Shown here one piece after another: positions 4,673-48,091 of a DNA stretch of 51,324 bases (its first letter is position 1; every line of letters starts with the position of its first letter). Made by a program: the position numbers and the translations under genes. The stretch is from assembly GCA_025356475.1 (NCBI GenBank), contig JANXSX010000211.1, positions 1 through 51,324 on the forward strand, given 5' to 3'. The notes below the pieces were generated by a model. That model saw nothing but the letters and a program-made list of their open reading frames with translations. It searched no databases and had not been told where the DNA came from. Source of the DNA: Isosphaeraceae bacterium. GTDB taxonomy: Bacteria; Planctomycetota; Planctomycetia; Isosphaerales; Isosphaeraceae.

Positions 4673-5742
4673 GGGGCGACTCCGAAGATGTGAGCCTCCT
4701 CGGGCGACCAGGACACACGCACGTCCGTGCCGACAGGAGGCGTTTCGACATCGGCCCGAAGCTCGGCCGTGAGGGGCACTCCGAGTTCGGACATCAACCT
4801 CAAGGAGACCGAAGTTCCCGAGAATTGACGGCCGACGATCCGCGCACCGAGGAAGCCTTCGAGGCCGAGCCAGAGATCCTGCGGCCGGACCCCCAGAAGC
4901 AGTTTGGGTCCAGCCGGAAGCGTGCGGCTGGTCGTTGGAACTCTCGGGCCGCCGGACAACTCGACCCATCCGTCCCCTTGCTCCGATCTCTCGCCGCTCA
5001 GCCAGTTGATCGGGCCGATGAAGGAGGCGACGAACGGGCTCACGGGTCGGCGGTAGATCTCTTCGGGAGGGCCGACCTGCTCCAGTCGCCCCTGGTTCAG
5101 CACTCCCACGCGATGCGCTGCTCGCAGGGCTTCCTCGCGGTCGTGCGTGACGTAAAGATAAGCCACCTTGAGCCGCTCCTGGATGTCCTGGAGCAGCTCG
5201 AGCGTCTGGGTTCTCAGGTGGGGGTCGAGCGCGGACAGTGGCTCATCGAGCAAGACCGCCTCGGACTCGCTGACCAGCGCCCGCGCCAGTGCCACCCTCT
5301 GGCGTTCCCCCCCCGACAGAGCCTCGACTCGGCGACTCGCGAACGGCCCCAACTCCACCCAGTCCAGGGCCTGCGCCACGCGAGCCGACCTGGTCCGGCG
5401 GTCCACCCCGGCCATCCGGAGCGGGAATCCCACGTTGCCGGCGACATCGAGATGCGGGAACAAAGCGTAATTCTGGAACACCGTGTGGACGCGGCGGCGG
5501 TACGGAGGCTGCTCGGTCACGTCCTGCCCCGAGAGCAGAACACGGCCCGAATCGGGCGATTCGATGCCCGAGACTAGCTTCAAGAGTGTGCTCTTCCCGC
5601 TTCCGCTCGGGCCGATCAGCGCCAGGAACTCCCCACGACCGACGGTCAGGCTCGTGCCGTCGATGACCGCTCGGCCGCCGAATCGCTTCGAGACTTCGCG
5701 AAGCTCGATTGCTGGACCATCCGCGCGATCGCTCGATCCCAT
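4669..5742 (-). CDS. potA: Polyamine-type ABC transporter ATP-binding protein (PotA-like)
   Basis: A 357-residue cytoplasmic ATPase that powers the importer. It has Walker A GPSGSGKST at residues 44-52, Q-loop glutamine at about 90, signature LSGGERQR at 142-149, Walker B VLLDEP at 163-168 with the D-loop SALD after it, and the switch histidine in VTHDREEAL. The C-terminal roughly 120 residues fit a TOBE regulatory domain (LLLGVRPQDLWL). Length is normal for PotA/FbpC-type subunits. It is first in the potABCD-OmpA run and starts 145 bases after the vWA gene, so it may have its own promoter or be read through from the large upstream operon. Iron- or thiamine-type substrate cannot be excluded from this subunit alone. 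Confidence 0.92.
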   Translation of the reverse strand: MGSSDRADGPAIELREVSKRFGGRAVIDGTSLTVGRGEFLALIGPSGSGKSTLLKLVSGIESPDSGRVLLSGQDVTEQPPYRRRVHTVFQNYALFPHLDVAGNVGFPLRMAGVDRRTRSARVAQALDWVELGPFASRRVEALSGGERQRVALARALVSESEAVLLDEPLSALDPHLRTQTLELLQDIQERLKVAYLYVTHDREEALRAAHRVGVLNQGRLEQVGPPEEIYRRPVSPFVASFIGPINWLSGERSEQGDGWVELSGGPRVPTTSRTLPAGPKLLLGVRPQDLWLGLEGFLGARIVGRQFSGTSVSLRLMSELGVPLTAELRADVETPPVGTDVRVSWSPEEAHIFGVAP

Positions 5743-38561: not shown

Positions 38562-39017
38562 ATGACGCTGTCATTTAGGACGAAGATCAGGGAAGTTACC
38601 GCGGTTGCAATTCTGGACTTCCTTAAAGCCCAAGGACCTTCTACGGCAGCCGACCTGCAGATGCTATTAGAAGTTCCCAGGGGAAGTGGCGTTCAAACCG
38701 TTTTGCCGGAGTTGGAACAATCTGGTCTCATCATACGCCAACAGGATCCCACCCTTGGCATGGGCAAAGCGAAGCCCTATTCCATAACTCCGGAAGGTGA
38801 AAGGTATCTGGAAACAGCGAAGCAAAAGACTCTGACTTTAGGTGCCGATGGAGGGCTGGGCTGGGCGGCAAGGGGGCGCGACCCGGAGCTGCACCAGGCC
38901 ATCGTGGATTTACTCGTTCGAAATTCTCTACTTGGCAAAGAGAATGAACCTAGTCTCCATCGTCTTGCCAGCGACATCATCGACGTAGTGGAACGCAACA
39001 ACAAACGGCAGCGGTAA
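38562..39017 (+). CDS. Winged-helix DNA-binding protein
   Basis: A 151-residue protein. Residues about 8-85 form a winged helix (VAILDFLKAQGPSTAADLQ, SGVQTVLPELEQSGLIIRQ, YSITPEGERYL), in the PadR/MarR style. The C-terminal 60 residues are helical and unassigned. ATG 38562 lies eight bases after GAGGGG; a TTG at 38532 is less likely. It follows the XRE gene by 67 AT-rich bases and converges on the parB gene 23 bases away. Its target is unknown; a local regulator of the element is inferred. Confidence 0.66.
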   Translation: MTLSFRTKIREVTAVAILDFLKAQGPSTAADLQMLLEVPRGSGVQTVLPELEQSGLIIRQQDPTLGMGKAKPYSITPEGERYLETAKQKTLTLGADGGLGWAARGRDPELHQAIVDLLVRNSLLGKENEPSLHRLASDIIDVVERNNKRQR

Positions 39018-39999: not shown

Positions 40000-40061
40000 G
40001 TGCCACTGGCACAATTCAAAAAAGCGAGTCTCATCGATTCCCCAAAGCTACGCTTCGGGGA
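40000..40061. promoter_or_regulatory. Palindromes between divergent parB and relaxase genes
   Basis: GTGCCA-C-TGGCAC is a perfect palindrome at 40000-40012. A hairpin TCCCC-A-AAGC/GCTT-C-GGGGA with one mismatch and a three-base loop lies at 40039-40061. The position between divergent parB and relaxase genes fits an operator, or part of the transfer origin used by the relaxase; no nic site was recognised. Confidence 0.4.
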
Positions 40062-40116
40062 GATGTCTGTCAAATTTTATCTTGTCTTCGAGGACTGCCC
40101 TGATATCGTGGGATTT

Positions 40117-42925
40117 ATGCTACGGATTACCACGATGCGGCATTCGGGACAAGCAAAAAGCTACTACACGCAGGCGTTGGCTTGCGAGGACGGCGTGAGC
40201 CGCGAGGGCTACTATTCGGAGGGGCAGGAATCCGTCGGGGTGTGGGGCGGGAGAGGGGCCGCAAGGCTTGGGCTCTCCGGGGTCGTGGAGCAGCGGCAAT
40301 TCGACGATCTTTGCGACAACAAGAATCCCAACTCCCCCTCCGGCGAACATCTCACGCCTCGGACTAAGACCGCTCGGCGGGTCGGGTACGACATCAATTT
40401 CCACTGCCCCAAGAGCGTGAGCCTCTATTTCGAAATGACCAACGACGGCCGGGTCCTCGCCGCATTCCAGGATGCGGTCCAGGAGACCATGCGCGAGCTT
40501 GAGGTCGAGACCCGGACACGCATCCGCCTCGACGGCCAGGACTCGACCCGGAAGACATCGGAACTCATCTGGAGCACGTTTATCCACCACACCGCGAGGC
40601 CCGTGGGCGGGGTTCCCGATCCCCACACCCACGCCCACATCGTCTGCTTCAATGGGACGTATGATGCGGTCGAGGGCCGATGGAAGGCGATCGACATTTC
40701 CGACATCAAACGGGATGCGACTTACTACGAGGCCGCGTTCCACGCGAGGCTCGCGGGGACGCTCCAGTCCGCCGGGTTCGCCATCGAGAAGACCGCCGGG
40801 CGTTGGGAGCTGGCCGGCATCGGCGCGGAGACGCTCGGCAAGTTCCAGGAGCGGACCCAGCTCATCGAGCGGATGGCCGAAGAATTCGGCATCACCGACG
40901 ACGCCGAGAAGGATGCCCTCGGGGCGAAGACCCGAGAGGCGAAGATCAAGGATCTGACCCGACCCGAGCTGCGCGAGGTCTGGCAGCGGCGGATGACGCC
41001 GGGCGAGCAAGCCGCCCTCGAAGCCGTCGGCCGGGGAGAAGTCACGAGCCCCACACCCGCGACGTCGGCCCGTCAATCGCTCGACTATGCCAAGCTCCAC
41101 GGATTCGAGCGGGAGAGCGTGATTTCCGAGAAGCGGTTAATGGCCCACGCCCTCCGTCATGGCGTCGGCTCGGTCTCGGTCGAGGAGGTCCATCGCGAGA
41201 TCGAGCGGCCCGGCAATGGGCTGATAACCCGCGACGTGGGCGGTCAGAGGCTCACGACCTTGCCCGCGATCCTCGCCGAAGAAAAACGGATGCTCGCCTT
41301 CGCCCGCGAGGGCCGGGGCACCTGCAACCGGCTGGCGGCGGGCCGGGAGATCGCGGGCACACTGCTCTCGGCCGAGCAACGGGCGGCCGTGCGTCACGTC
41401 TGGGATTCGCGCGACAGGGTCATGCTGGTCCGCGGCGGGGCCGGGGTCGGCAAGACGACACTCATGAAGGAAGTCGTGGCCGGGATCGAGGAGCACGGGA
41501 CGAAGGTTTTCGCGTTCGCCCCCTCGGCCAGCGCCTCCCGGGGGACGCTCCGCGAGGAGGGCTTCGCCGGGGCCGACACCCTGGCCTCCTTGCTCCAGGG
41601 TCGCGAAGCCCGGGAGCGGGTCAAGGGCGGGGTGATCTGGGTCGATGAGGCCGGGCAGATCGGCACGCGCGACCTCGCCAGGTTGTTCGAGATCACCGAG
41701 GCCGCCGAGGCCCGCGTGCTGCTGACTGGGGACGTCCGCCAGCATGGCCCGGTGGCCCGGGGGGACGCGATGCGGCTCCTCCAGGAGCGATCGGGCTGCC
41801 ACGTCGCCGAAGTCCTGGAGATCCGGCGTCAAGCCGGGGCCTACCGCGAGGCGGTCAAGGCCCTCGCGCGCGGGGACGTCGAGGCGGGATTCCGCAAGCT
41901 CGACGAACTCGGCTTCATCCGGGAGGTCGAAGGAGAGGAACGCCATCGGCGGATGGCGGCCGATTACCTCGCGGCCCTCAAGGGGCACAAGGAGAACAAG
42001 AACGAGGCCCTGTGCATCGCCCCGACCCATCGCGAGGGGGCGGCCCTCACGGCGGAGATCCGCCGGGGCCTCAAGGAGCAGGAACGTCTCGGCGACGGCG
42101 AACGCAAGTTCGCCCGGTACACCAATCGTTCGCTCACCGAGGCCGAGCGGGGGGATGCCGTCCATTACGAGGCGGGCGACACGGTCCAGCTCGTCCAGAA
42201 CGTGAAGGGCTTCGCCCGAGGGGAGCGCCTCACGGTCGCGGGGCGCGACGAGTCGGGGGGCGTCTTGGTCGCCCGGCCGGGGGGTGCGGTCGTGTCGCTC
42301 CCCCTGGGCCAGGCCGGGCGACTCCAGGTCTACCGGACGGGGGAGCTGCCGATCGCCCCGGGGGAGTGCCTCCGCGTGACCCAGAACGGCTACTCCAAGC
42401 CCGGCTTCCTCGGCCGTAAGCACCGGCTCAACAATGGCGACCTCTTCACCGTCAAGGGGTTCACCGCCGACGGAGACCTCAAGCTCACAAACGGCTGGGT
42501 CGTCGCCAAGGACTTCGGGCACTGGGATCACGGCTACTGCCAGACGAGCTATGCCAGCCAGTCGCGAACCGTCAAACGGGTCTTCGGAGGAGAGCTTGCC
42601 GGCGACCGACCTGCGGGCCTTCTACGTGTCGGTGAGCCGGGGGAAGGCCGAGTGTCGGATCTACTCCGACTCGAAGGAGGCCCTCTTCGAGCGGGTTCGC
42701 CGCAGCGACGAGCGGCTCTCGGCCGTGGAGTTGCTCGCCGGGGAATCGCGCGGCGGCTCGCCGCGGCTCGCGCGGCTCCGCGAGCTGGCCGAGCAGAACG
42801 CCCGCCTCAAGGCCCGCGAGGGGGCCTGGGCAGGGCGTCCGGTTGACGGCCCGAGAGGATTCGATCGCCCGGCGGGCGTGCCTGTGAAGGAAGAGGCGAA
42901 TCGGGGGCCGGCGTATGAGCGATGA
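40117..42925 (+). CDS. MobF (TrwC/TraI-type) relaxase-helicase, frameshifted near the C-terminus
   Basis: A conjugative relaxase. Tyr16-Tyr17 near the start are the nicking tyrosines, and HTHAH (His170, 172, 174) is the metal triad. A RecD-like helicase follows: Walker A GGAGVGKTT at 440-448, Walker B VIWVDEAGQIG at 506-516, then LLTGDVRQHGPV. The reading frame breaks at GG 42586-42587, just after ASQSRTVKRV; removing one G restores EESLPATDLRAFYVSVSRGK, the expected helicase motif VI end, and the frame continues to 42925 (about 935 residues). Unrepaired, the first frame ends at 42846 with unrelated residues. If real, the break would remove the last helicase motif but leave nicking intact. 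ATG 40117 is chosen because TrwC proteins start at this point. Confidence 0.85.
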
Positions 42926-43319
42926 GCCGAAGCGGACATGGTCCGCGATCAAGGGCGAACGGAAACCCGAGCAGGCCGCCCCCCCCTCCCCCGCCGCCGG
43001 GGAGGAGGCGTTCTCGACGCGGAATGCGGCCCCGCGCCAGGAGCAAGTCTCGCTCGATCTGCGCTTCAAGGACGGGTCGTGCCTGGGGCTCTCCTATGCC
43101 TACCTCACCGCGCGGCGATTCGATCCCTCCGGGGGGATCACCCTGGAGATGGCCGGTTACAAGGTCGTCATCCAAGGCATCCACCTCGACGACCTCTATC
43201 GGCGGCTGCTCCTCAACGCGGTCGCCAGCATCCAGGAGGTGGACGAGTTCGAGGATGGGGCCGGGGACTCGAACCCGAAGGCGACGGCGGTATTTGTCAT
43301 CCGGGCGGAGCAGGTTTGA
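42915..43319 (+). CDS. Small protein following the relaxase
   Basis: A 134-residue soluble protein. The first 45 residues are low complexity (Ala/Pro/Glu); the rest is a compact alpha/beta unit (VSLDLRFKDGSCLGLSYAYL, LEMAGYKVVIQGIHLDDLYR). I do not recognise the family. ATG 42915 overlaps the end of the corrected relaxase frame by 11 bases, so it is probably translated with it. An accessory role in mobilisation is inferred from that coupling. A strong hairpin follows the stop by 17 bases. Confidence 0.65.
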   Translation: MSDEPKRTWSAIKGERKPEQAAPPSPAAGEEAFSTRNAAPRQEQVSLDLRFKDGSCLGLSYAYLTARRFDPSGGITLEMAGYKVVIQGIHLDDLYRRLLLNAVASIQEVDEFEDGAGDSNPKATAVFVIRAEQV

Positions 43320-43336
43320 AGGCAGTTTGGCTCGGC

Positions 43337-43378
43337 ATGCCGCAAGCCCAGAAAGCCAGCTTTCTGGGCTTGCGGCAT
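43337..43378. terminator. Perfect 19-bp hairpin after the relaxase operon
   Basis: Two perfect 19-base arms (outer part ATGCCGC, inner part AAGCCCAGAAAG) enclose the loop CCAG. It begins 17 bases after the stop of the plus-strand gene. There is no T-run, so it may be a bidirectional terminator, a DNA-binding site, or both. The inner core is shared with the hairpin at 43554-43601. Confidence 0.65.
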
Positions 43379-43553
43379 CAAGTCATCGGTTCGGATGGGG
43401 TTCGATATGGCGAAAGCCGGTCCGTCCGCCCCTTGGAGCCGTTGGAGAGGGATGGCGCATGCCTTTCGTGCCGGCTGGGAAGACCCGATATTTACGGCCC
43501 CTCCTGGGCGGGGCCTCCGCCCACCCGCTCCGCCGAAGGCGGTCATCTCCGCT

Positions 43554-43601
43554 CGAAAGCCATAAGCCCAGAAAGCCGGCTGTCTGGGCTTATGGCTTTC
43601 G
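43554..43601. terminator. 22-bp hairpin after the ribbon-helix-helix gene
   Basis: Arms of 22 bases with one mismatch (G at 43582 in place of T) around the loop CCGG. The outer stem (CGAAAGCCAT) differs from the first hairpin, but the inner AAGCCCAGAAAGCC core is the same. It starts five bases past the stop of the minus-strand gene at 43606, mirroring the first hairpin's position relative to the plus-strand gene. Confidence 0.65.
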
Positions 43602-43605
43602 GCGA

Positions 43606-43983
43606 TTACTTCCGATGGGTTTCGATGTAGTAGCGGACCGCCCTCTCGACATATTCGCCGGGCTGGATCATCTCGGCATAGGCCAGCCGGTAGAACTGAT
43701 CCCGGAGCGTCTCCTCGATCGAAAGGGTGACTTTCGTCTTCTCCCCTTTCGAGGCAATCGCTTCCTCCTTCTTGGCCCTCGGCCGACCCTTGATGCCTCC
43801 GACCTTCTTCGGGGTGTTGGTCCCTTCTCTGGGCGTTTCTGACGGGTCCGACTGGCGCTCGACCTGGGCCGGGATCGCGGGGGCGGACTGTGTCGGTTCG
43901 GCCGGTCGTTCCTTGCGTTCCTGATCGCGCGAGACGAGGTCGCCCAGGACCCCGCGAACCCCTTCTCCCTTTTTATTTGCCAT
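43606..43983 (-). CDS. Ribbon-helix-helix DNA-binding protein, ParA partner
   Basis: A 125-residue protein. The first 80 residues are disordered and charged; residues about 82-125 form a ribbon-helix-helix domain (KTKVTLSIEETLRDQFYRLA, then GEYVERAVRYYIE). The gene overlaps the 3' end of parA by 11 bases. The layout (small ParA followed by a ribbon-helix-helix protein with a flexible basic N-terminus) matches type Ib partition systems such as ParF-ParG, where the second protein binds the centromere and stimulates the ATPase. The repeats and hairpins around it are candidate binding sites. Confidence 0.75.
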   Translation of the reverse strand: MANKKGEGVRGVLGDLVSRDQERKERPAEPTQSAPAIPAQVERQSDPSETPREGTNTPKKVGGIKGRPRAKKEEAIASKGEKTKVTLSIEETLRDQFYRLAYAEMIQPGEYVERAVRYYIETHRK

Positions 43984-44716
43984 CGATGACTCCTTTCAAT
44001 TTATCGAGGACGGCCCGATAGTCTTCCATGGCGTTGGACCGCTTCAGACTCAAAATATTCCCATCTGTCGTTGCATACATCAAATCCGCCTCGGCCCGCA
44101 CGCGACCGAGTACGGGATAGTGGCGGCTCACTTCCTGGTCCACCTGGTCGTTGATCCTCCGGCGGTGCTGGCAGTTGGTGAGGATGACGCCTGCAACCGC
44201 TAGCGTGGGGTTTACCTCCAGCTCTCTCAATTGCTCCAACACCTCGATGAACCGGGCGAGTGCCCTCATCTCGTACCCGCCCGGATGCAGGACGATCACG
44301 ACGTGGGACGCGGCGGCCAGCGTGTTGGTCGAGAGCACGCCTAGCGACGGTGGGCTATCGACGAGGATGAGGGTGCCTGGTGGAAGCGGCGTCTTCTGGA
44401 GGCAAGCCCGCAACAGGTTTTCCCTCCCGGGTTGGGAGACGAAACGCTGCTCGCCGCTCGCGAGGTCGATGCTCGACGGCGAGAGCGTGAGGTGGTCGGT
44501 GATTTCGACGATCGGGAGTGGCCCCCGTGTCGCCAACGCTTGGTAGAGTTGCCCGCCCGGGTCTTCTTTCCCGAACGTGCTCGTGAGGCTCGCTTGCGGG
44601 TCCATGTCGATGAGATGGACCCCCCTGCCCTGCTGGCTAAGCAACGTCCCGAGGGCCGCGACGGTGGTCGTCTTCCCGACCCCGCCTTTCTGGTTGGCGA
44701 TCACGATTACCGGCAT
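43973..44716 (-). CDS. parA: ParA-type partition ATPase
   Basis: A 247-residue ATPase of the small ParA/ParF class, without the N-terminal helix-turn-helix of long ParA. The deviant Walker A KGGVGKTT is at residues 10-17, HLIDMDPQAS at about 34-43 is Walker A', and LILVDSPPSLG near 116-126 is Walker B. It would form ATP-dependent patches or filaments on DNA to segregate the plasmid. The ATG 44716 has AAGGAG 11 bases upstream. The 245-bp divergent region before it contains several CCCAGAAAG-type repeats. Confidence 0.92.
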   Translation of the reverse strand: MPVIVIANQKGGVGKTTTVAALGTLLSQQGRGVHLIDMDPQASLTSTFGKEDPGGQLYQALATRGPLPIVEITDHLTLSPSSIDLASGEQRFVSQPGRENLLRACLQKTPLPPGTLILVDSPPSLGVLSTNTLAAASHVVIVLHPGGYEMRALARFIEVLEQLRELEVNPTLAVAGVILTNCQHRRRINDQVDQEVSRHYPVLGRVRAEADLMYATTDGNILSLKRSNAMEDYRAVLDKLKGVIDGK

Positions 44717-44960
44717 GCGATCCTAACTCCTTTCATGATGACGCCATGCAAATACCATATCGCTTCCATTCTGTAAAGCTGGCTTTATTCCTTTGATAGG
44801 TTATTGCTTTACGGATTTATGTAATCCCAGAAAGATGGTATTTTATCCGTCGTTCAAGGCTGGCCCCGTGTTTGTCCGATGAGTAAAAGGCGGCCTGGTG
44901 GCGTGGGCGTGCAGACGCTATTACGCCCGGACGGTTAGGGCGAACGATGGGGGGATGGCG
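44717..44960. promoter_or_regulatory. Divergent control region of parA and ribbon-helix-helix gene; candidate centromere
   Basis: AT-richer than its flanks. It carries AAATACCAT (44750-44758), the near-palindrome AAAGCTGGCTTT (44775-44786) and the long repeat at 44823-44843. All are versions of a CCCAGAAAG-TGGTATTT pattern found elsewhere in the partition region. Confidence 0.55.
44823..44843 (+). repeat. 21-bp repeat, copy 1 (upstream of ribbon-helix-helix gene)
   Basis: Contains CCCAGAAAG then ATGGTATTT. It matches 45196-45216 at 20 of 21 positions. Confidence 0.7.
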
Positions 44961-45233
44961 ATGAGTCTCGATGAAATCGGCGGTGCCGCCGCCAAGACGC
45001 GGAGGCGGGCAAACTCCAAGGCGGCGGACCTTCATTCCGCCAAGCGGCTGAAATGCACCATCTCCCTCTCCCCCCAGGCTTCTCAACGTCTGGGCGTCCA
45101 TGCCTCGATGACGGGGAAGGATCGATCGGAGGTGGTGGAGACGCTCATCAATCAGCACCTCCGCCGTTACGTGGTCAGCGACCGGGGATCGCCCGAATCC
45201 CAGAAAGCTGGTATTTCAGAAAGCGAAGAGTAG
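44961..45233 (+). CDS. Small ribbon-helix-helix (CopG-like) DNA-binding protein
   Basis: A 90-residue protein. Residues about 25-75 form a ribbon-helix-helix domain (RLKCTISLSPQASQRLG, then GKDRSEVVETLINQHLRRYV). It is divergent from parA and probably regulates this region or binds the centromere. Two nearly identical 21-bp repeats flank it, the second lying inside its last codons. I use ATG 44961 because GGGG lies six bases before it; ATG 44955 is also possible. The two ribbon-helix-helix proteins at this locus are not alike outside the fold. Confidence 0.72.
   Translation: MSLDEIGGAAAKTRRRANSKAADLHSAKRLKCTISLSPQASQRLGVHASMTGKDRSEVVETLINQHLRRYVVSDRGSPESQKAGISESEE
45196..45216 (+). repeat. 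21-bp repeat, copy 2 (within the 3' end of the ribbon-helix-helix gene)
   Basis: One mismatch to 44823-44843 (C for A at the tenth base of the CCCAGAAAG-TGG part). It overlaps the last codons of the gene, so coding and site functions may coexist. Confidence 0.7.
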
Positions 45234-45278
45234 TTCGCGCAGCCTGGACGGCGGGGCAGGGGGGGCCTCGCAGTAAAA

Positions 45279-45295
45279 CCCCGAAAGCCATATTT
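45279..45295 (+). repeat. Degenerate copy of the partition-region repeat
   Basis: CCCCGAAAGCCATATTT resembles the repeat core with one base missing and GG-T changed. It lies 46 bases after the ribbon-helix-helix stop. Confidence 0.4.
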
Positions 45296-45378
45296 ATTTC
45301 TTTCTGTAAATCCATAATTATGGTTTTATTGCTTTTGACCTTTCCCGCCGTTGGCGACCCGGCGATTGGCCCGGGGCC

Positions 45379-45960: not shown

Positions 45961-47409
45961 CTAGGCGACGGGTGGGCGATCTCGGGTGGCGAGGATGTTT
46001 CGGATGAACTCTTGCCTGCGGAGCGTCCGGGCCAGGCTCCTGAACGCCCCGGTCTCCATCGCCAGGGTGGCGGGGTCGGCTTGGGCTCGCGCGGCCGAAT
46101 CAAGCGCCTCCTGCTGTTCCGGGCTCAGGGAAGCCCAATAAGCTTCGATGGCCCCCCGCTCGGTCTTCTCGCGGGCCTTTTCTTCGCATTCCTTGCGACG
46201 ATCTTCGGCCACCTTTCGTTCCCTAGCTTGCTTGGCTTCCTTTTGCTGCTGGCGCTCGGCCGCGGAAACGAAGCCCTTCGGGGCCTTGTAGTCGTCGATG
46301 ATGGATTTGACGAGATACCCCTCCGGACTCCGGGCGACCCGCTTATCCTGCTTCTCCAGGAGCCAATCGAACACGTCGATTTTCGCCTCGATCTTCGCGG
46401 CGGGGTGCTTGCCGACCAATTCGGCTGCCGTCTTGCCCGTGACTCCTCGCTTGGTGAGTTCGATCACGAGGGCAGGGCGGTCGGCCTCGGGGGTCTCCTG
46501 TCGCGGATCGCTCGTCGATTCGACGACACCGGCGGAATTCAGGATCAGTCGGATTTTCCACCCCTTGCCGTCTTTAGGAAACCGTTTGGAGTCCGGCAAT
46601 CGCGTGAGGAACCCGATCGATTCAAGCTCGCTGATGGCCGGTTGCAATTTCCGCTTCAGGTGGGCAGGGCCGTCGTAATTGCGGCCCAGGCCGATATGCT
46701 CGCAAGCGAACTCTTTGAGGGGGAAGGTCCAATCCGCCCGATGATGGAACCGCTTGTCGAGGAAGCGATACATCCTCTTCGCGGTGGAATTGCTCAGTCC
46801 CATGCACAAATCGTAATCCAGGGGTTTCAAGTACCCGGCCTGGAAGCTCTCGAAGATGACTTCGTTCCACACGATGAATGAAGGCATCAGATCGAGTTGG
46901 GCGTCGTCGGCCCGGAAGTCGTTCAGCTCGAATCGATCGAGGATGTGGAACCCGGCAGATTTCCAGGATTTCGTGCGATTATCTCGCCAAGCATTCTCAT
47001 ATTTCAAATAAACGCTCGTCCATCGATCCAATGCGGTGGCGATCCTCTCATAGCTCGCCCCGCCCATGCTCCATCTCAACAACTGAACCAGTTCATAACG
47101 ACTGAATTCGAGCCTTCTTTGGGTGAAGTTGTTTTTCTTCTTGGTGAGTTGAATTAAAGATAAGATGACTTCATCATCCAAGGCCGTGGTGAGGCCGTGG
47201 TTCCCGGCCGTGATCGTCAGTTTCCGCGTTAGGGTGAGCCCGCTTCGCTCGTCGTGAATTTCATCCTGATAGATAGCCTCTTGCTGGTTTTTGGGCACGC
47301 GGTCCGTCAGGAGGGCGATGGGGAACTCGGCGAGGTTCATCTCGTCGCGCCCAAGCAGCGCGAGAGCTTTGTGTGGCAGGTTCGGGCGGATGTCGTCGGT
47401 TGATTTCAT
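45961..47409 (-). CDS. repA: Plasmid replication initiator (RepA/RPA family)
   Basis: A 482-residue initiator. Features typical of the replication initiator A family include KNQQEAIYQDEIHDE, the helix-turn-helix-rich RRLEFSRYELVQLLRWS and the second winged-helix region YRFLDKRFHHRADWTFPLKE, LKRKLQPAISELESIGFLTR. A C-terminal extension contains a coiled coil (AERQQQKEAKQARERKVAED). It would bind iterons at the origin and load the replication machinery. ATG 47409 has AAGGAGA 11 bases upstream. Repeats directly upstream (47538-47633) are the presumed origin. The presence of this gene marks the region as a plasmid or an integrated plasmid. Confidence 0.87.
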   Translation of the reverse strand: MKSTDDIRPNLPHKALALLGRDEMNLAEFPIALLTDRVPKNQQEAIYQDEIHDERSGLTLTRKLTITAGNHGLTTALDDEVILSLIQLTKKKNNFTQRRLEFSRYELVQLLRWSMGGASYERIATALDRWTSVYLKYENAWRDNRTKSWKSAGFHILDRFELNDFRADDAQLDLMPSFIVWNEVIFESFQAGYLKPLDYDLCMGLSNSTAKRMYRFLDKRFHHRADWTFPLKEFACEHIGLGRNYDGPAHLKRKLQPAISELESIGFLTRLPDSKRFPKDGKGWKIRLILNSAGVVESTSDPRQETPEADRPALVIELTKRGVTGKTAAELVGKHPAAKIEAKIDVFDWLLEKQDKRVARSPEGYLVKSIIDDYKAPKGFVSAAERQQQKEAKQARERKVAEDRRKECEEKAREKTERGAIEAYWASLSPEQQEALDSAARAQADPATLAMETGAFRSLARTLRRQEFIRNILATRDRPPVA

Positions 47410-47671: not shown

Positions 47672-48091
47672 TCAGATGCGCCAATTCATGAGGATCAGGG
47701 GATGGCCGAGTTGCTGAATCCGCTGGAAGTGGGTGGTGTTGCCTGTGGCCAGTTCCAGGCCGTGATGGAGGGCGATGGCGGCGATCATCGGATCGGCGAT
47801 GCCGATCGGCTGGCCGGTACGGTCCAGCTCGCCGGCGATGCGGCCGGCCAGTTCGGCGGCGGGCTGGTCGAATTCAAGAACTTCCTGGCCCGCGATCGAG
47901 GCGAGGAAGGCGTTGAGGCGGAACGGGTTATTCGCCCGCTGGTGGCCCCGCACGATCTCCGTGACGCTGATGACCGAGAGCGTGTAACGGCCGAAGGCAC
48001 GCCGATAGGTGGTGGCGTTGGCCGCGACGGTTGGGTTGATGCCTTTGCCGATCTCGGAGATGATGTCGGTGTCGAGCAGGGCCTTATTCAA
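47672..48091 (-). CDS. vapC: VapC-type PIN-domain toxin
   Basis: A 139-residue PIN ribonuclease. The acidic pocket is visible as LLDTDI (Asp7), SVTEIVRG (Glu near 45) and IGIADPMIA (Asp near 99); the last position reads TGNTTHF, with Asn where many family members have Asp, a common variant. It would cleave RNA unless bound by the antitoxin. It overlaps the antitoxin gene by eight bases, with the antitoxin first. This toxin-antitoxin pair beside the origin fits plasmid addiction. Confidence 0.85.
   Translation of the reverse strand: MNKALLDTDIISEIGKGINPTVAANATTYRRAFGRYTLSVISVTEIVRGHQRANNPFRLNAFLASIAGQEVLEFDQPAAELAGRIAGELDRTGQPIGIADPMIAAIALHHGLELATGNTTHFQRIQQLGHPLILMNWRI

Follow-up and report, generated by a model that had tools for sequence, protein, structure and literature searches.

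Type Ib ParABS loci in which a ribbon-helix-helix (RHH) protein acts on short phased repeats are a known class, as in the heptads of pSM19035 and in TP228 parH. The parH boxes are of the ACTC type, differing from the 8-bp units (octads) described here, and a 4-bp box followed by a 4-bp spacer gives them a pitch of 8 bp. The repeat of pCXC100 is 9 bp in length and direct only, unlike these octads. At the met box, RHH dimers of MetJ occupy units of 8 bp, and the strand that faces the DNA contains a K-x-T motif; MetJ is, unlike the system studied here, a chromosomal repressor with SAM as co-repressor and no ParA. A met box consensus is cited in PMC13379313. In pSM19035, one RHH ParB dimer binds per 7-bp repeat, and ParA is activated only by four or more contiguous repeats (PMC9499535).

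The stretch of DNA analyzed here (the window) is a whole contig of 51,324 bases from a planctomycete assembly. As in the delta/omega parS system of pSM19035, several arrays of short, contiguous, non-palindromic repeats in either orientation surround the par genes, which here encode a small, putative RHH ParB and a ParA without an HTH (PMC9499535, PMC5016525). The two differ in that pSM19035 has 7-bp WATCACW units and the window a degenerate 8-bp unit (protein homology was compared for ParA only). Degenerate short boxes with spacers and an RHH protein (putative in the window) with a flexible N-terminus encoded after the ATPase are shared with TP228 parFGH and its ParG (PMC7308502), although in the window further arrays lie downstream of parB and on both sides of a second RHH gene. 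The ParB/parS system of pCXC100 is similar in that its RHH ParB acts on short direct repeats that are contiguous (PMC5016525). The par locus of pSINAC03 (NC_019895.1) from Singulisphaera acidiphila, a species placed in the same family as the assembly (Isosphaeraceae), has a ParA 58% identical to that of the window, homologous rhh2 and rhh1 genes, and phased GGAAWGCC octads in three arrays. These arrays are longer and more perfect than those of the window (20 and 12 units), and the database record does not describe a centromere. No description of such arrays, or of any centromere, in planctomycetes was found in the literature. What looks new is a family-wide constant 8-bp pitch with plasmid-specific sequence in planctomycetes; the pitch itself may be common to TP228 parH.

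Organization of the par locus

The genes of the locus and its surroundings are as follows.

40000-42846: MobF relaxase
42915-43319: small gene
43606..43983, minus strand: rhh2 (parB), putative RHH centromere-binding protein, 125 amino acids (alignment; AF2 two-helix C-terminus; weak structural matches)
43973..44716, minus strand: parA, Walker ATPase, 247 amino acids, KGGVGKTT at the N-terminus (Pfam AAA_31, 3.9e-32; ParA structures)
44961..45233, plus strand (start at 44955 or 44961): rhh1, second RHH protein (weak Pfam RHH_1; family matches)
45961..47409, minus strand: repA, replication initiator, a neighbor outside the centromere (Pfam RPA, 2.6e-12)
47672-48091: VapC-like PIN-domain reading frame adjoining repA (recognized by eye)

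A vapC gene also occurs on pSINAC03. ParA has no N-terminal HTH extension, and repeat arrays comprising 39 phased octads lie beside the par operon, both in agreement with type Ib ParABS. The rhh2 gene overlaps the 3' end of parA by 11 bp. Pfam gives no match above cut-off for RHH2, RHH included. An AF2 prediction run with two sequences has two confident helices after a KTKVTLSI stretch, and the structural matches, while weak (best Z 3.8), are nearly all to RHH proteins (CopG, Arc, PutA). The N-terminal segment of RHH2 contains a short conserved motif in which R10 and G14 are invariant in the alignment, making it a plausible contact for ParA by comparison with ParG (PMC5016525). For RHH1, the homologue on pPALBO2 passes the Pfam RHH_1 cut-off. 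Besides the window, relatives of RHH2 occur only in pSINAC03 and in two further loci (L039 and L041) among 45 family genomes, 392 phylum genomes, and PLSDB; no relatives of ParA were found in viral contigs. The sequence GGGCAGGGGGG occurs both inside parA (44620-44630, minus strand) and just after rhh1 (45254-45264, plus strand).

Phased octads in the window and its relatives

The original prediction proposed a centromere from a 9-mer, CCCAGAAAG, which has five exact sites in the window (43347(+), 43360(-), 43567(+), 44826(+), and 45199(+)). All lie within 43347-45207, around ParA and the two small proteins as had been proposed, and none elsewhere in the 51,324 bases; the scattering over the replicon that would have spoken against a centromere was not seen. 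The concentration is far above chance (0.44 sites expected per window; five sites reached in 0 of 100 shuffles), and in the complete 5.9-Mb assembly there are 61 sites, ~1 per 97 kb. Also borne out are a pair of copies identical at 20 of 21 bases (44823/45196), a degenerate copy near 45279 (CCCCGAAAG), and the location of two copies within long hairpins, formed by inverted repeats of 20+2+20 bp (43337-43378) and 24+24 bp (43554-43601). Repeats were also predicted in related par loci, and these carry homologous octad arrays, but CCCAGAAAG itself is absent from the par loci of L039, pSINAC03, and L041 and was rejected as the repeat unit. The 9-mer captures only part of a phased series of degenerate octads, most of which a search with a 9-mer does not show; the original prediction had missed that the sites belong to such a series. 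Two "related sites" proposed at 44750 and 44775 are units of a 12-octad array (44749-44844).

The octads have the consensus RGAAWGCC on either strand, and ~39 units form five arrays flanking rhh2-parA and rhh1, none with an assigned strand.

43334..43381: array 1, 6 units, 23.6 bits (other pitches ≤12.4; 0/1000 shuffles); contains the perfect 20-bp inverted repeat
43554..43609: array 2, 7 units, 35.9 bits (other pitches ≤11.8); immediately downstream of rhh2 and including the 24-bp inverted repeat
44749..44844: array 3, 12 units, 55.8 bits, the top run of the window; divergent parA/rhh1 intergenic region
45186..45225: array 4, 5 units, 29.2 bits; within the 3' coding end of rhh1; L039 counterpart at 5485-5524
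45274..45345: array 5, 9 units, 42.0 bits (other pitches ≤18.8); between rhh1 and repA

The scores are from an EM model, [GA]GAA[AT]GCC, trained on L039, pSINAC03 (L040), and L041 alone; the window itself was held out, although its sequence had already been read when the training arrays were selected by eye. With this model, the five arrays are the top five in-phase runs of the 51 kb (23.6-55.8 bits), compared with 19.3 bits for the next-best run and a maximum of 20.6 bits in 60 Markov null windows. That next-best run, a lone series of three octads near the relaxase gene (38607-38630), is at chance level. Pitches of 5-7 and 9-12 reach at most 18.8 bits as against 55.8 for pitch 8, whose score was reached in 0/1000 shuffles per region. 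The heptad pitch of pSM19035 parS was not found in the window arrays (pitch 7, ≤10.2 bits). In the pooled self-match of the five arrays, peaks occur at lags of 8 (z 5.8) and 16 (z 5.4), all other lags from 3 to 19 being at or below 2.8. Nearly every array, whether from the window or from its relatives, has lag 8 as its top lag or one of its top lags. Arrays 4 and 5, whose starts are 88 bp apart, share a common 8-bp phase. In both the window (45186-45233) and L039, octad DNA codes for the conserved tail at the C-terminus of RHH1 (PES-KAGI), and therefore a single stretch is coding sequence and putative binding site.

The locus L039 (CAJCII010000184.1) has a ParA 80% identical to that of the window and the same gene order; in L041, ParA is 56% identical. 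Both, as well as pSINAC03, have 8-bp words in fixed phase, head-to-tail or inverted, exemplified in pSINAC03 by GGAAAGCC GGAAAGGA GTAACGCC GGAAAGCC. The window arrays are more degenerate than those of pSINAC03, and a model is needed for a full view of them. The arrays belong to the par module and do not follow the type of RepA, because L039 keeps the par genes and octads with a different RepA (27% identical), while loci with a RepA 50-64% identical to that of the window or pSINAC03 but without such a parA-rhh2 pair have no octads of the window type. The L039 contig is labelled Bacteroidetes yet carries a planctomycete-type plasmid, and the label is probably a binning error.

Octad arrays across Isosphaeraceae plasmids

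We scanned 84 loci around repA or rhh1 homologues in the family Isosphaeraceae for periodicity, without regard to sequence. At lag 8, z exceeded 6 in 28 of the 84 loci, and no locus exceeded this value at lags 5, 7, 10, 13, or 14; the signals at lags 6, 9, and 12 are due to codons. Lag 11 appeared in 17 loci, and the strongest of these, when read, are 22-bp direct repeats. Such repeats, with GGAGGA or GGGGAGGAA cores, lie near repA in L103, L113, L105, L102, L106, and L131, and are probably RepA iterons. Of 51 loci with an RHH gene, 37 have 8-bp phasing, as compared with 2 of 32 loci without one (p ~1e-9). Several of the 14 RHH loci without octads are cut by contig ends, and when four contigs were joined where an array was expected across the join, the lag-8 signal appeared in three (z 8.0, 5.8, and 5.6). 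In L086, L095, and L096, which lack octads, the gene after parA encodes a protein that is large, does not resemble the small RHH ParBs, and has no RHH match. A restriction of octads to parA-rhh2 of the window type was rejected, as the scan turned up arrays with different sequences in many plasmids of the family. In the family loci, the 10-mer GGGCAGGGGG outnumbers its reversed control ~15-fold (122 as against 8), resembling a Chi/KOPS-type motif.

Per-locus EM indicated a constant pitch and an octad sequence that differs between plasmid groups (GGAAAGCC, CTAG, GTAC, CCTTGG, and CGATATCG). Octads are centered on CTAG in pPALBO2 (L079) and have GTAC in L080, CGATATCG in L084 and L085, and GGAAAACC in L148; CCTTGG/CCAAGG octads characterize a group of ~15 plasmids, the clearest of which have 25-36 units. 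Runs of 45-64 octads occur in L135 and L147 (up to 64 in the latter). Held-out scores of arrays under their own models were 4.9 bits per octad for the window, 4.8-4.9 for the P. borealis pair, 4.4 for L080, and 4.3-9.6 for the G034 pair, and 1.0-3.4 for the weaker arrays of L093, L082, L091, and L122. Models from co-resident plasmids gave at most 1.8 bits per octad, and the octads of one plasmid are not matched by the models of other plasmids in the same genome.

A candidate RHH-bound centromere and its alternatives

That the repeats are centromere or operator DNA, as first proposed, is the best-supported reading, although with a degenerate 8-bp unit in place of the 9-mer. We favor it for RHH partition proteins because the sites are confined to the par locus, the arrays of relatives are homologous, and the arrays track the par module. 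More specifically, we put at about 75% the probability that the sites are the parS centromere and operator of a type Ib ParABS locus on which RHH dimers would stack every 8 bp, by analogy with the pSM19035 heptads. An RHH protein, most likely RHH2, which is encoded directly after parA, would bind as side-by-side dimers, each on one octad whatever its orientation. An unbroken spiral of protein would thus cover the five arrays, and with 8 bp corresponding to ~274° of twist the stack would be left-handed. Once coated, the arrays may recruit ParA on the nucleoid and activate it, probably by way of the N-terminal segment of RHH2, such that plasmids are pulled apart. Array 3 spans the divergent parA/rhh1 promoter region, and the same complex should therefore repress its own genes.

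An autoregulatory role for the octads as mere operators of parA/rhh2 and rhh1, with no part in a centromere, is distinctly improbable: array 3 does fill the divergent intergenic region, and RHH proteins are often autorepressors (PMC5016525), but arrays 1, 2, 4, and 5 are not at promoters, being located downstream of genes or within the end of a coding region, and the 45-64 consecutive octads of L135 and L147 are far beyond the needs of an operator. Replication iterons bound by RepA, suggested by the position of array 5 between rhh1 and repA, are very improbable and were rejected, as the octads track parA-rhh2 and do not co-vary with the replication initiator; several family plasmids with homologous RepA carry the 22-bp direct repeats (lag 11/22) instead. 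It is hardly credible that the hairpins act as terminators of transcription or as REP-type elements, with the remaining 9-mers coincidental. Both hairpins directly follow stop codons of convergent genes, but neither has a T-tract, and no intrinsic terminator (a GC-rich hairpin followed by a T run) was scored at either one; terminators and RNA elements were rejected, none having been found at the locus. The exact 14-mers occur nowhere else in the genome. Both long inverted repeats consist of octads head to head (AGAAAGCC/GGCTTTCT), with halves that keep the octad phase, and at the pSINAC03 site corresponding to the post-rhh2 hairpin the octads are direct. Given this direct counterpart and the missing T-tract terminators, the hairpins are an incidental by-product of inverted octads.

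It is unlikely, but less so than these alternatives, that RHH1 reads the octads as its operators, with RHH2 serving only as a link to ParA or binding at other sites. In the window, L039, and L079, rhh1 is flanked by arrays, RHH1-like proteins adjoin arrays in most loci, and L148 has a single 21-octad array over an rhh1-like gene with no parA in the stretches read. Against this, L079 and L080 have in common the RHH1 strand KVKATIHLS but differ in their octads (CTAG and GTAC) and in their ParB strands (KITSTYL and VQCSVYL), and the CCTTGG class has one RHH gene listed per locus, ~1 kb from the arrays and possibly the gene after parA. From these two comparisons we infer that RHH2 is the probable reader.

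On the RHH-centromere reading, likely planctomycete centromeres are identified by phase rather than by sequence, a signature overlooked by motif searches. Isosphaeraceae plasmids might then share one centromere architecture of invariant 8-bp pitch, with mutually unreadable octads letting many plasmids coexist per cell and with octad sequence and DNA-facing RHH strand diverging together as natural orthogonal RHH-centromere pairs, a proposal we hold tentatively, at slightly less than even odds. Co-resident plasmids may escape confusion through their sequence differences, and with the pitch constant and the sequence specific to plasmid groups, recognition of their own centromeres by RHH proteins and partition incompatibility become directly testable. 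A comparative-genomics study suggested that ParA and ParB of Paludisphaera borealis are located on different plasmids (PMC5352709). Against this suggestion, genes for both a ParA and an RHH-like ParB are present on pPALBO2 itself.
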